Shown here one piece after another: positions 7,030 to 17,726 of a stretch of DNA of 35,774 nt. The first letter of the stretch is position 1; the number at the start of each line of letters is the position of its first letter. The translations under genes and the position numbers were made by a program. Source of the stretch: a virus; IMG/VR virus record IMGVR_UViG_3300049732_000304, positions 1 through 35,774 of that record, one strand, 5' to 3'. The notes beneath the pieces were generated by a model that saw only the letters and a program-made list of their open reading frames with translations, was not told where the DNA came from and ran no database searches.

Positions 7030-7425
7030 CTATCCTTTGAAGATGGGTGCGAGTGCGTCGTAGATGGCGCGGGCCTCTTCCATAGAGACCACAGCCGACT
7101 GTCCCTTGGGGAGAGGAATCATGAGGAGCACGGCGTCCTTCTTCTTGATGCGGGTGGTTTTCCGAACGACGGGAGCATCGAGCCGCCCTTCGCCGTTCAT
7201 TTCCTCCGGAAGCTCCTTCGCTACCGCCCGATACTGCGCCGCCCGCATCTTGTCCTTCTTTTCCGAGGACACCAACTTCGCTTCGACGAGCGTCGAAAGG
7301 GACGAGGAAACTGTCCCCTTGGGGATCGGGATGTGTTTGAGAGCCTGGAAAATCTGCTGCCCCGACAGAGGTCTGTCGGCGCCCTTCAGGACTGTGAAAA
7401 TCTCCTTCTTCGGATTGTAACTCAT
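7030..7425 (-). CDS. Winged-helix-like DNA-binding protein
   Basis: 131 residues. The first 60 read like a winged helix: ILTVLKGADRPLSGQQIFQ-type helices (here FTVLKGADRPLSGQQIFQAL), then PKGTVSSSLSTLVEAKLVSSEKK as the recognition helix and wing. The second half holds a basic linker (RKTTRIKKKD) and VLLMIPLPKGQSAVVSMEEARAIYDAL. It resembles small MarR/BlaI-type regulators but I cannot name a family. The ATG at 7423-7425 has GGGAG upstream; an in-frame TTG at 7434 directly abuts that site and is less likely. Being near the head of the early operon, it may regulate this operon or the repeat region at 15.3 kb. Confidence 0.68.
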   Translation of the reverse strand: MSYNPKKEIFTVLKGADRPLSGQQIFQALKHIPIPKGTVSSSLSTLVEAKLVSSEKKDKMRAAQYRAVAKELPEEMNGEGRLDAPVVRKTTRIKKKDAVLLMIPLPKGQSAVVSMEEARAIYDALAPIFKG

Positions 7426-7465
7426 AACGATCAACTCCCTCTGTGATGTTAGGCACTACAGAAGC

Positions 7466-7844: not shown

Positions 7845-9878
7845 ATGAGTCAAGAGTCGCCGATTCAGTTGGTGACCTTCAGAGATGTTTACGACTATGC
7901 AAAGAAACGGGGATTCGGTGAAGCCGATTTTGAGCAGTCCGGGTGGCAAATTCTCCCACTCGCTCGCGCTAAAGAATCTCTTGGCCATCAGGTCTTTCCT
8001 AGCGACGCCAACGCCTTCGCTATTGTCTTTCACTATCATGGCCCTGATGGATCCCCATTCGGATATGCCACGCTCCGCATCATTCGTGGCGCAAGGGACC
8101 CCCGGACGTTTGCTGGAGCCACCGAAGGCGACGGTCCTAAGATGCTTGCTCCGCCGAGACGGCCGCCTCGTGTCTATTTCAGCCGACGAGTGGCGTGGGG
8201 TGCTCTCCCGGTTGGAACAGAAGTACAGATCCATGAGTCCGTACTTAAAGCCGAATCGGCGATAAAGAAAGGCTATGTCGCTCTTGGAATTTCCGGATGT
8301 TGGGGCTGGGGCTCCAAAATACATAGGATCCCTCTTCTCGATGACTTCGGATTGCTCCCATGGAGCGCAAAAGGTCTCCGTCCCGTCGTGGTATTCGATT
8401 CCAACACGGTACGAGGATATCCCGAATTTCAAGAGCTCTTGGAAGTTGCTATCAAGCGATTTGCTGGAGCTTTCCAAATTGAACACCACGTACCGGTCAC
8501 TCGTAGACGAATCCCGGCCGGACCCGGAGGGCACTCGTGGGGGTATGACGATTGGGCGGTTACTCCTGATGGTGGGCGCTTTGAAGGCGAATCTGACGTG
8601 GTTGAGTCCGATTCTTCTCGAGCAGCACTCGAGAAGATCAACTCCGAATACGCCTACGATCACGGAGTTAATCGCATTGTCACACTCAGTGCTCCTCATC
8701 AAATCATTTCAGTCCGGGATTTTAAGGATAAGATTAAACCACTGCGATATGAAGACGCTGACGGAGAACTGAGACCAGCGTCTGAAGCGTGGATGGTGTG
8801 GGACAAAAGATTTGAGACCTACGGGCCGGTCTACCGGCCCGGCGCAGAGACTATCTGGATCGACGCAATCTCGCGCCCGCACGTGAATATGTGGTCGGGC
8901 TGGGGCTGCGACGCCAAAGAAGGGGACGCATCCCCTTTCCTCAAACTCTTGGAGAATTGTCTTGATCGAGAAGAAATTCAAGAATTCCTCATGTGGATGG
9001 CATGGCCGCTCCAGCGCCCTTCGGAAAAGAAAAGCTCAAAGGTTCCTATCCTTGTTGGACCCGAGGGTGTGGGGAAAAGCGCCATATTCCGCGTTCTTGA
9101 AAAGATTCACGGACCGAAAAACTGCGCTTTTATCAACTCTGCGGACCTTGAAAGTTCTTTCAATTCGTACATCGCCAACCGTACGCTCGTTGTTGTTGAC
9201 GATTTCACCAAGATCGATCGGAAGACGAACGCCAAGCTACGGAATATCGCGACGAATGAGACAATTCGGGTCAATGCGAAGTTCACGCCGGAATACGATG
9301 TGGAGAATTGGGCATCGCTAGGCTTCACCGGCAACGAATATGACGCATTGGCGATGGAGGAAGACTCCCGTCGATTCTTCGTTATGAAGATGACTCCGAA
9401 GGTTCGTTGGACAACGGTCGAGTGGGACCCATTCTGGAAATGGGTCCTAGAATCAGGACCTTCAGCGCTTAGGTTCTTTCTAGAACATCTTGACATCAGC
9501 TTGTTCAAGGCTGACGCACCGGCGATACTGACCACAGGCAAGAAACTCGTCGCCAGCGCAAGTGCTTCACCTCTCCACACATGGCTTCGTGATTTGAAGG
9601 ATTTCACCGGGGCGCGTCGGGTGTGTACTGCCAAGGAACTTGATTTCCTGTATGTCCGTTTCGGTGGAGGATCGCAAGATGTAACTCCGGGGCGGACTAA
9701 AGCGATTACCGACTGGTTGGCCTCCCATGGATACGTCCTTGCGACCGAGGCCAAGGTCAAAATTGACGGCCTTCCCACGCGGGTGTGGTCCCTCGATGGA
9801 TCTAGCGACTGGTCCGCGCAGGCGATTCGTGAAGAAATGACGAAGCATCCACTCGTTCCACAATCAAAGGTGGACTGA
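7845..9878 (+). CDS. Primase-like / SF3 helicase replication protein
   Basis: 677 residues. The N-terminal half resembles the Toprim-like DUF3854 domain of phage and plasmid primases: EVQIHESVLKAESAIKKG (about 127-143), ALGISGCWGWG, RPVVVFDSN (179-187). The C-terminal half is a D5-like superfamily 3 helicase: Walker A GPEGVGKS (405-412), Walker B TLVVVDD (447-453), sensor-like GFTGNE (493-498) and the Arg pair in DSRRFF (507-512). Together these suggest a replication initiator or primase-helicase that opens DNA and primes the family A polymerase. The upstream AAGGG is a modest ribosome site. The gene starts plus-strand block 2, 48 bases from the divergent minus-strand gene. The helicase call is firm; the primase activity is inferred. 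Confidence 0.9.
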   Translation: MSQESPIQLVTFRDVYDYAKKRGFGEADFEQSGWQILPLARAKESLGHQVFPSDANAFAIVFHYHGPDGSPFGYATLRIIRGARDPRTFAGATEGDGPKMLAPPRRPPRVYFSRRVAWGALPVGTEVQIHESVLKAESAIKKGYVALGISGCWGWGSKIHRIPLLDDFGLLPWSAKGLRPVVVFDSNTVRGYPEFQELLEVAIKRFAGAFQIEHHVPVTRRRIPAGPGGHSWGYDDWAVTPDGGRFEGESDVVESDSSRAALEKINSEYAYDHGVNRIVTLSAPHQIISVRDFKDKIKPLRYEDADGELRPASEAWMVWDKRFETYGPVYRPGAETIWIDAISRPHVNMWSGWGCDAKEGDASPFLKLLENCLDREEIQEFLMWMAWPLQRPSEKKSSKVPILVGPEGVGKSAIFRVLEKIHGPKNCAFINSADLESSFNSYIANRTLVVVDDFTKIDRKTNAKLRNIATNETIRVNAKFTPEYDVENWASLGFTGNEYDALAMEEDSRRFFVMKMTPKVRWTTVEWDPFWKWVLESGPSALRFFLEHLDISLFKADAPAILTTGKKLVASASASPLHTWLRDLKDFTGARRVCTAKELDFLYVRFGGGSQDVTPGRTKAITDWLASHGYVLATEAKVKIDGLPTRVWSLDGSSDWSAQAIREEMTKHPLVPQSKVD

Positions 9879-14888: not shown

Positions 14889-15185
14889 TCAGGCCTGTTC
14901 GGCCAGCCAGCCGCGCCGGACGGCGTAGCTGACGTAGAGCAGTCCGTTGCCCTTCGGCCCGCCGCACTCCGGAACTTTCAGTTCCGGAAGCGCCGCGAGC
15001 TCGGCCGCGGTGGCCGGGAGCTTCTTGGTGATCGCCGCCCACGCCGTCGCGGTGTGGGCCGTGCGATGCTTGGGTGCCTTGGACCCGAGGACCAGTTTCT
15101 TGACGACGGGCGCTGCCGGGGCAGCGGGTGCGACCTCGGGCGCTGCCGGGGCAGCGGGTGCGACGGGTGTTACGGTCTTGGCCAT
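14889..15185 (-). CDS. Small basic protein with Ala-Pro repeat arm
   Basis: 98 residues. The first 28 are an Ala/Pro/Val arm containing two copies of VAPAAPAAP, encoded by a 27-nt direct repeat (15108-15134 and 15138-15164, 30-base period). A compact domain follows: VKKLVLGSKAPKHRTAHTATAWAAI (shown in part), PATAAELAALPELKVPECGG and LLYVSYAVRRGWLAEQ. The arm resembles flexible tails of DNA-binding or structural proteins. AAAGGAG precedes the ATG, it has its own promoter and tandem terminators, so it is a strongly expressed single-gene unit. Function unknown; an abundant nucleic-acid-binding protein is one possibility. Confidence 0.72.
   Translation of the reverse strand: MAKTVTPVAPAAPAAPEVAPAAPAAPVVKKLVLGSKAPKHRTAHTATAWAAITKKLPATAAELAALPELKVPECGGPKGNGLLYVSYAVRRGWLAEQA
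14968..14988. repeat. Perfect 9-bp hairpin inside the Ala-Pro gene
   Basis: TCCGGAACT-TTC-AGTTCCGGA, within coding sequence, no T-run. One of the intragenic hairpins clustered between 11.7 and 15.0 kb. Confidence 0.55.
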
Positions 15186-15229
15186 ACAAACTCCTTTGTG
15201 CGGTAAGGACCATTCCCTACCGTAAAATC

Positions 15230-15257
15230 ATTGTACCATAGCCCTAGAAAAACGCAA
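15230..15257 (-). promoter_or_regulatory. Promoter for the Ala-Pro protein gene
   Basis: On the minus strand: -35 TTGCGT (15252-15257), 16-base spacer ending in TGG, -10 TACAAT (15230-15235). A 7-bp palindrome AAAACGC-AA-GCGTTTT (15249-15264) overlaps the -35 and could be an operator. Confidence 0.7.
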
Positions 15258-15294
15258 GCGTTTTCCACGGAAAAGTGTTTTGCTCTGCAAAACA
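15249..15294. repeat. Two hairpins in the control region
   Basis: AAAACGC-AA-GCGTTTT (15249-15264) and TGTTTTGC-TCT-GCAAAACA (15276-15294), both perfect. They sit between the minus-strand promoter and the SOS-like repeats. A third short one, GGGGGT-CGGCC-ACCCCC, lies at 15416-15432. Confidence 0.6.
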
Positions 15295-15324
15295 GCTCTG
15301 GCACGAGACTTGCTTGGGCACCCT

Positions 15325-15409
15325 CACTGTATATCCATACAGTCATGTGGATCTAACCACTGTATATCCATACAGTCATGTGGATCTAACCACTGTATAT
15401 CCATACAGT
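15325..15409. repeat. Triple 33-bp direct repeat carrying LexA/SOS-type boxes
   Basis: Two full 33-bp units (15325-15357, 15358-15390) and a partial third (15391-15409). Each contains ACTGTATATCCATACAGT. The boxes CTGTATATCCATACAG fall at 15327-15342, 15360-15375 and 15393-15408, exactly 33 bases apart (about three helical turns). They fit the LexA consensus CTGT-N8-ACAG, and differ at only one position from the E. coli sulA SOS box as I recall it. They may be LexA operators, sites for a phage repressor with the same specificity, or iterons. Confidence 0.85.
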
Positions 15410-15511
15410 AGTCACGGGGGTCGGCCACCCCCAACGACGAACAACGAAGATCGCGTCCGGTTATGGCCATCGGGGAGTTAAATGCAGTCCTCTAGGGTCA
15501 GGAACTGTATG

Positions 15512-15523
15512 TCGCGTACGCGC
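15512..15523. repeat. 12-mer TCGCGTACGCGC, copy 1
   Basis: Contains the 10-bp palindrome CGCGTACGCG. An identical 12-mer lies at 16393-16404, directly before the large terminase start. The pair brackets the three small genes upstream of the terminase. Confidence 0.5.
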
Positions 15524-15525
15524 CC

Positions 15526-15554
15526 TTGCAGGACGAGGTTTTTCATGGTACACT
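15526..15554 (+). promoter_or_regulatory. Promoter for the packaging/late operon
   Basis: TTGCAG (15526-15531), 17-base spacer ending TGG, -10 TACACT (15549-15554). GTACA-CTC-TGTAC, a short palindrome, overlaps the -10 and start region and may be an operator. The mRNA leader to the first GTG would be about 27 bases. Confidence 0.65.
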
Positions 15555-15587
15555 CTGTACAAACTAAGTTCGCAAGGGGAAGACAGC

Positions 15588-16406: not shown

Positions 16407-17726
16407 GTGAAAACCGTCACCATCCCATATGCGCCGCGGGATCAATTTCTCCCATTTCACCAGAGAAATCAGCGATGGACCTGTATGGTCTGTCATCGGC
16501 GCGCTGGGAAAACGGTCGCCACGATCAATGATTTGATCACGAAAGCGCTCTACGCAAGACGAGAAAGACCCCGCTACGGATACATCGCCCCGTTTTACTC
16601 GCAAGCGAAGCAAATCGCCTGGGATTACCTCAAGCACTACTCAAAAGAAGTCGCCGTAAAGTCTTCAGAATCAGCGCTCTCCGTTGACTTGTTCAACGGG
16701 GCGAGAATTACGCTCTACGGAGCGGATAACCCAGACTCTTTTCGGGGTCTGTACTTCGACGGAGTTGCCGTGGACGAATACGGCAATTGTCGTCCGAACT
16801 TGTGGTCGGAAATTCTGCGTCCAGCCCTGTCGGACCGACGGGGATGGGCAGTTTTCATTGGAACACCGAACGGTCCCAACCATTTTTACGATATTTGGGA
16901 GCAAGCTGGGGAAGACGCGCAGTCGTGGTATCGTCTTATGCTCAAGGCGAGTGAAACGGGCATTATAGACCCGGACGAACTCGCTGAAATGAAGAAGTCT
17001 ATGAGCGAGGATGAGTATGAATCAGAAATGGAGTGCTCTTGGTTTGCCGCCGTTCGAGGGAGTTACTACGGGCAAGAAGTCAAGGCCGCGAAGATCGGCA
17101 ATTTTCCGTCGGTTCCAGGAGTGGAAAGTCACTACGTGTTTGATCTTGGGTACACCGACACCACCGCCGTCTGGCGATGGCAAGAATTCGTCGACCACAT
17201 TCTCGTCAGCTACGCTAACGAGTGGGAGTCCAAAAGCATCGAGTTCTACATAAACTGGCTCCATGCTCAGCGTGAGGCCGGTTATCGGATGGGGCAAATC
17301 TGGCTCCCTCAGGACGCGCGGGCGAAATCCCTTCAGACAGGGCGCTCTATCGTTGAACAGATGCTCAACGGAGGCATCCGCCCACGGCTGGTCCCAAATC
17401 TTGGCATTCAGGACGGAATTAGCGCCGCTCGGTTAATGTTCAAAGACATTGTGTTTGACGGGCAAGGGTGCTACAATGGGCTCAAAGCTCTAAAGAGTTA
17501 CAAAAGGGAGTTCGACGAAGAAAAGAAGGTCTTTCGCGACAAGCCGCTACACGATTGGGCGTGTAACTACGCGGATTCCTTCCGGTATTTGAGTCTCGTA
17601 GCGAAACTTGGAGCGCCGTCTCCGCTCGTGGAGGCGCCGAAGCCATTCGCGGTCCCGCTGCACTACAGCTTCACGATGGATCAGGCCTGGACATGTGGCC
17701 CCATCCGTGATAAGAGGATCCGCTAA
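16407..17726 (+). CDS. terL: Large terminase subunit (ATPase and nuclease)
   Basis: 439 residues. ATPase: Walker A CHRRAGKT (29-36), Walker B DGVAVDE (118-124), coupling motif IGTPNG (151-156). RNase H-like nuclease: FDLGYTDTTAVW (Asp246, Asp251), LPQDARAKS (Asp303) and HDWACNYADSFRY (Asp383/Asp390). Both halves are intact, so it should cut concatemers and drive DNA into the prohead through the portal. The start is GTG at 16407 with no Shine-Dalgarno sequence; an in-frame stop at 16380 leaves no better choice. The stop overlaps the portal ATG by one base (TAATG). The packaging mechanism cannot be told from sequence alone. Confidence 0.96.
   Translation: MKTVTIPYAPRDQFLPFHQRNQRWTCMVCHRRAGKTVATINDLITKALYARRERPRYGYIAPFYSQAKQIAWDYLKHYSKEVAVKSSESALSVDLFNGARITLYGADNPDSFRGLYFDGVAVDEYGNCRPNLWSEILRPALSDRRGWAVFIGTPNGPNHFYDIWEQAGEDAQSWYRLMLKASETGIIDPDELAEMKKSMSEDEYESEMECSWFAAVRGSYYGQEVKAAKIGNFPSVPGVESHYVFDLGYTDTTAVWRWQEFVDHILVSYANEWESKSIEFYINWLHAQREAGYRMGQIWLPQDARAKSLQTGRSIVEQMLNGGIRPRLVPNLGIQDGISAARLMFKDIVFDGQGCYNGLKALKSYKREFDEEKKVFRDKPLHDWACNYADSFRYLSLVAKLGAPSPLVEAPKPFAVPLHYSFTMDQAWTCGPIRDKRIR

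Follow-up and report, generated by a model that had tools for sequence, protein, structure and literature searches.

In the Bacillus thuringiensis phage GIL01, host LexA controls the promoters P1 and P3; one LexA box lies downstream of P1 and two are found at P3 (PMC6182141, PMC4551915). Pseudomonas phage YuA is referred to as a sigma-54-dependent phage in PMC5053324, and its record NC_010116 annotates three -24/-12 promoters. A bacterial operon, rsr-yrlBA-rtcBA of Salmonella, brings both inputs together: after DNA damage it is switched on by the sigma-54 activator (bEBP) RtcR in a manner that depends on RecA and on LexA cleavage (PMC7790460, PMC9879122). The use of LexA (GIL01) and the use of sigma-54 (YuA) by phages are each known, but we found no report of their combination, with a LexA box placed at a phage promoter of the sigma-54 type, in a literature search that took in subscription journals only to a small extent.

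Here, we describe such a candidate promoter in IMG/VR virus record IMGVR_UViG_3300049732_000304 (35,774 nucleotides), the whole of which was analysed and is called the window below. The window is a podovirus-like phage. Its left part encodes DNA polymerase A, two nucleases (one RecB-type, one VRR-type) and a primase/helicase; the right arm encodes a small terminase-adjacent protein, the large terminase, the portal (phrog_12082), the major head protein and tail genes. No tRNA was found in it. The DUF5906/D5-like primase-helicase gene (7845-9878, + strand) reads rightward amid a mostly leftward arm and creates a second divergent region at 7434/7845.

Box array and predicted sigma-54 promoter

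Between the first leftward gene and the terminase-side gene (Table 1), the 18-mer ACTGTATATCCATACAGT occurs three times without a mismatch at spacings of 33 and 33 bp. The units 15325-15357 and 15358-15390 are identical letter for letter, and the third copy departs after the box. This is the arrangement that the earlier note had read from the sequence, and it was recovered by coordinates, by unit comparison and by Tandem Repeats Finder. Given this identity, they should be counted as a single box that was duplicated in tandem and not as three independent occurrences. A scan of the whole record for CTGT-N8-ACAG returned these three sites only. In shuffled sequence the 18-mer is expected 0.01 times with up to three mismatches, and CTGTAT-N4-ATACAG was seen in none of 400 shuffles of the window. 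An identical array is present in IMGVR_UViG_3300045936_000194, which belongs to the same phage species. Across IMG/VR the exact 18-mer is found in more than 119, mostly unrelated contigs, in a single copy in each, which indicates a common box and nothing more; a box pair 33 bp apart gave 14 matches, by our estimate about the number expected by chance, apart from the same-species contig L129. Another recent tandem duplication, of 30 bp, lies near the array at 15107-15164, within the leftward gene.

Table 1 Features of the control region and its flanking genes (window coordinates)
Feature	Position	Strand	Remarks
First leftward-operon gene, small Ala/Pro-rich protein	14889..15185	-	No function assigned
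-10 TACAAT of leftward sigma-70-like promoter	15230..15235	-	Sequence match
Inverted repeat GTTTTGC-TCT-GCAAAAC	15277..15293	.	Just upstream of sigma-54 promoter; kept in L137, with loop AGA
Predicted sigma-54 (-24/-12) promoter TGGCACG-AGAC-TTGCT	15299..15314	+	Exact consensus match; predicted start ~15325
Tandem array, 33-bp unit	15325..15409	+	Tandem Repeats Finder (2.6 copies of 33 bp, 100% match) and unit comparison
SOS-type box 1	15326..15343	.	Predicted +2 to +19 of sigma-54 transcript
SOS-type box 2	15359..15376	.	33 bp after box 1
SOS-type box 3	15392..15409	.	33 bp after box 2
Leader hairpin GGGGG-TCGGCCA-CCCCC	15416..15432	+	Weakly conserved in L137/L138
Leader block CCGGYTATRG..GGGAGTTRAAT..CCTCTA	15450..15497	+	Common to three lineages; candidate short hairpins
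Extended -10 sigma-70-like promoter TGGTACACT	15546..15554	+	Adjoins terminase-side gene; similar sites in L137/L138
First downstream gene, terminase-adjacent small protein, 116 aa	15588..15938	+	Putative TerS by position
Large terminase subunit	16407..17726	+	phrog_2, E=2.8e-32

Just upstream of the array, the pattern TGGCAYR-N4-TTGCW, including the GG and GC dinucleotides at -24 and -12, is matched exactly, and this is the sole exact match in the record. Dinucleotide shuffles of the window contained the strict pattern 0.0125 times on average, and a sigma-54 core with a nearby box was found in none of 400. With the C of TTGC set at -12, the predicted start falls at the edge of box 1, which argues that the boxes are start-site operators rather than remote elements. 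The promoter and box 1 are 11 bp apart, and CTGT would begin at +3, +36 and +69 of the transcript. Box 1 thereby lies over or just downstream of the predicted start (+2/+3), a GIL01-like layout, and this predicted position is the classical one for blocking. The earlier note had placed the boxes 68 and 118 bp away from two extended -10 promoters. These distances are right, but the promoter that matters was overlooked, and the idea built on them, that a remote placement would suit looping or iterons, does not hold.

The control region contained no sigma-70 site of consensus sequence and standard spacing, and no activator site was identified for the predicted sigma-54 promoter. The sigma-70-like promoter directly before the terminase-side gene may also drive the terminase genes. 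The inverted repeat upstream of the -24 element is a candidate for a terminator on the - strand or for an activator site. Toward the terminase genes, the predicted transcript has a leader of 263 nt that may have a role of its own. Equivalents of its conserved block lie at about 960-1010 in L137 and 3112-3160 in L138, and matches in IMG/VR are confined to the same three lineages; no Rfam family was matched, the block included. The product of the first downstream gene had no family match in profile searches; homologues in L172 and L168 are encoded at the corresponding place beside the terminase, and the gene precedes that of the large terminase.

Close relatives and recurrence in unrelated phages

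The relative L137, whose portal is 80% identical to that of the window, retains every consensus base of the sigma-54 site, with changes confined to the free N4. In L137 and L152 a single palindrome, GTAAGT-GCTT-ACTTAC, replaces the boxes and starts at the predicted +1. L138 and L158 do not have the sigma-54 site; here a sigma-70-like TTGCAT-N17-TATCAT is found instead, and a palindrome TGGTGC-ATC-GCACCA covers its -10 and start. What is conserved is thus a palindrome in this place, and neither the boxes nor their 33-bp phasing. The earlier note had taken relatives that lack this phasing as evidence against its proposal, and these four are such relatives. The palindrome of L137 and L152 is not of the LexA type; this and the different arrangement in L138 and L158 count against LexA as the predicted binder.

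To look beyond close relatives, IMG/VR was scanned for a sigma-54 core followed, after a gap of 4-30 nt (27 gaps allowed), by CTGTAT-N4-ATACAG. Seventeen contigs matched, and 13 of them have the window's gap of 13 nt. These 13 fall into four sequence groups: group 1 (L177, L179, L187), group 2 (L178, L181-L184), group 3 (L164-L166, L172) and the window with L129. The gap is 11 nt in L168 and longer than 13 nt in L180, L185 and L186. Between groups the 13-nt gap sequences are otherwise dissimilar. If gaps are assumed to be uniform, at least three of seven other groups would share the window's gap with a probability of 0.0016; merging of relatives lowers this value to 0.0005. When 84,980 species of bacteria and archaea were scanned for the same pattern, there were eight hits (L188-L195), with scattered gaps. 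Conservation of the arms between groups is partly by construction, because the scan demanded LexA-like arms; this does not apply to the fixed gap. Similarly, TGGCAYR-N4-TTGCW has 26 matches in 18 records and the reversed control pattern none; most of these records had entered the set through one such site, so that it is the additional ones that are informative.

In every group with readable terminase genes the element is intergenic and lies next to the gene for the small terminase or to the one in the equivalent position. The terminases are distant: that of the window is 45% identical to that of L172 and 36% identical, over 208 residues, to that of L184. The promoter faces the terminase in the window, in L168 and in group 2; those of groups 1 and 3 face the other way, and "late promoter" is therefore not a general description. 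Some promoters of groups 1 and 2 have further boxes upstream, at -63, -98, -134 and -187. Group 2 has, on the terminase side, divergent perfect sigma-54 promoters 28 bp apart (L184 3427-3486, L178 4227-4286 and relatives), of which only the rightward one carries an SOS box at +3.

Among phages with related terminases, the element was absent near the terminase in P26218, Venkman, HTVC103P, HTVC106P, two Manatee Spring podoviruses, ctYwJ313 and Mvi-Yong. A search for portal homologues in 399 Burkholderiales genomes and 369 genomes of its class gave two distant relatives (35% identity) in which the element is absent. A sigma-54-like core near a box in L076 lies in an AT-rich stretch and was judged a coincidence; hits of a looser scan (L163, L167, L169-L171, L174-L176) were set aside, as they have other contexts and mostly other gaps.

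Several further sites came to light. The Zobellviridae Vibrio phages 172P1 (L215, 2476, + strand) and 1.293.O (L216, 34, + strand) have sigma-54-like sites before an early operon, with no SOS box at the start; the sequence downstream, TTGCTACGTGCGTA, is similar to the second sigma-54 site in L172 (position 6073). A 49-kb phage contig (L227; G018:C1; IMGVR_UViG_3300010233_000031) has three sigma-54 matches and one SOS-type box. It encodes a sigma-54 activator (L227 1318-2199, - strand; G018:C1 35494-35985, - strand; PF00158, E=3.9e-57, 293 aa) in which GSYTGS replaces GAFTGA, possibly a phage-encoded bEBP. At around 47109 of G018:C1 (- strand; L226), the -12 element of a sigma-54 site is inside a perfect inverted repeat, AACTTGC-TTGTAT-GCAAGTT.

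Candidate binders of the boxes

The boxes of the window agree at 16-17 of 20 positions with the gamma- and beta-proteobacterial LexA consensus TACTGTATATATATACAGTA, as the earlier note had supposed, although this consensus may not be that of the host; across all groups the agreement is 15-18 of 20. The centres vary (ATCC, ATCT, ATAT, GTTT, GGGC, ACAC), the arms are constant and the flanks extend to TACTGTATATATATACAGTA; varying centres with constant arms are also a property of SOS operators. The window box is one base away from the sulA box of Escherichia coli, and the group 3 box is one base away from the recA box. Both of these E. coli SOS promoters use sigma-70. The earlier note had seen neither LexA nor an integrase in the phage, and our searches of the record likewise gave no S24/LexA-type peptidase, tyrosine integrase or sigma-54 activator (bEBP) gene; S24 peptidase and tyrosine integrase were found in none of eight records searched. 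A host protein common to several phage lineages would account for their having the same motif.

Different host or phage proteins could nevertheless read these palindromes. Three close relatives carry three different palindromes at the predicted start, as would be expected if a phage-encoded repressor or another host protein bound there, relatives switched operator specificity in an immunity-like manner and the SOS likeness were convergent. The window even has a weak winged-helix candidate at 7030-7434, below the cut-off. We consider such a repressor unlikely: the searches found no repressor family and no S24 peptidase, and the sharing of a LexA-consensus motif by unrelated phage groups fits a common host protein. 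It seems equally worth asking whether the boxes activate rather than repress, as enhancers of a host bEBP that recognises CTGTAT-N4-ATACAG. Sigma-54 promoters require a bEBP, the boxes co-occur with them, often in multiple copies, and some of the upstream copies in groups 1 and 2 are at usual enhancer distances. However, the copy that varies least lies over the start, at +3 and with a fixed gap of 13 nt, which an enhancer would not need, and neither the opposite promoters in group 2 nor the sites in Vibrio phages have a box over the start. The motif matches LexA, and we know of no bEBP with this motif. Altogether, an enhancer role appears improbable to us.

The palindromes could also act as RNA, as hairpins at the 5' end that make the transcript more stable or give structure to its leader. 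A transcript starting at 15325-15326 would open with a 7-bp hairpin, that of L137 would likewise open with a hairpin, and the three boxes fold into a single long stem (z -4.6). This role is nonetheless very unlikely, since boxes upstream of start sites cannot be hairpins of that transcript. Moreover, the outer base pair is broken in group 1, loops vary freely, the arms are without covariation except in L137, and the palindrome of L138 spans the -10 and start and would be transcribed incompletely. The upstream boxes argue in the same way against iterons for replication or packaging, a role suggested by identical tandem 33-bp units adjoining terminase genes. Iterons would be conserved as an array at the origin among close relatives, but the array is missing at the same place in the 80%- and 72%-identical relatives, the number of boxes in other phages ranges from one to three, with differing spacings, and the boxes are tied to promoter geometry. 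We regard this role as highly improbable.

LexA-like arms, upstream boxes, a motif that crosses lineages and the lack of S24 peptidase and integrase favour host LexA. We put at roughly 60% the probability that host LexA represses a sigma-54 phage promoter at its start site, and does so until the SOS response; LexA as the binder, its repression, the activity of the promoter and the identity of the activator are what we infer from the nucleotide sequence. Host RNA polymerase with sigma-54 would bind the -24/-12 element and be poised to start, reading right toward the terminase genes. Host LexA would occupy box 1 and, cooperatively or redundantly, the tandem copies downstream, and thereby prevent open-complex formation or block early elongation. 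Activation of RecA by DNA damage or infection would lead to self-cleavage of LexA and lift the block. An ATP-hydrolysing host activator (bEBP) would still be required, which would make the promoter an AND gate with an active sigma-54 activator and an active SOS response as its two inputs. The phage may live in a carrier or plasmid state.

Meaning and comparison with known systems

The recurring layout suggests that viruses couple a terminase-side control promoter to the DNA-damage alarm of the host. It is tempting to speculate that unrelated environmental phage lineages converged on, or exchanged, a two-key promoter in which host LexA, at a fixed distance, holds sigma-54 polymerase at the start and which fires only if the SOS response and a sigma-54 activator signal arrive together, a view to which we give slightly less than an even chance. 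If true, a promoter that joins LexA and sigma-54 at a fixed geometry across unrelated phages would be a new control logic, and viruses without integrase or repressor genes could still sense the DNA-damage and nutrient/stress state of their host. Sigma-54 with a box at a fixed gap would then be a simple sequence signature with which to find such phages.

Like the window, as predicted here, YuA uses host sigma-54 promoters for its structural-gene region. Unlike the window, its 59-kb genome does not contain CTGT-N8-ACAG, and its annotated promoters do not match the strict -24/-12 pattern used by us. The Salmonella operon is bacterial; its dependence is indirect, via tRNA fragments, with no LexA box on the promoter. 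The coupling of RtcR to LexA cleavage indicates that a cell can receive both inputs at once but does not by itself implicate RtcR in the window. GIL01 differs from the window in its Firmicute LexA motif, in the helpers gp6 and gp7 and in that no involvement of sigma-54 has been reported, and it is a known temperate linear prophage, whereas no integrase was found in the window. What GIL01 and, by prediction, the window have in common is silencing by host LexA at boxes downstream of promoter elements, with neighbouring boxes also at P3.
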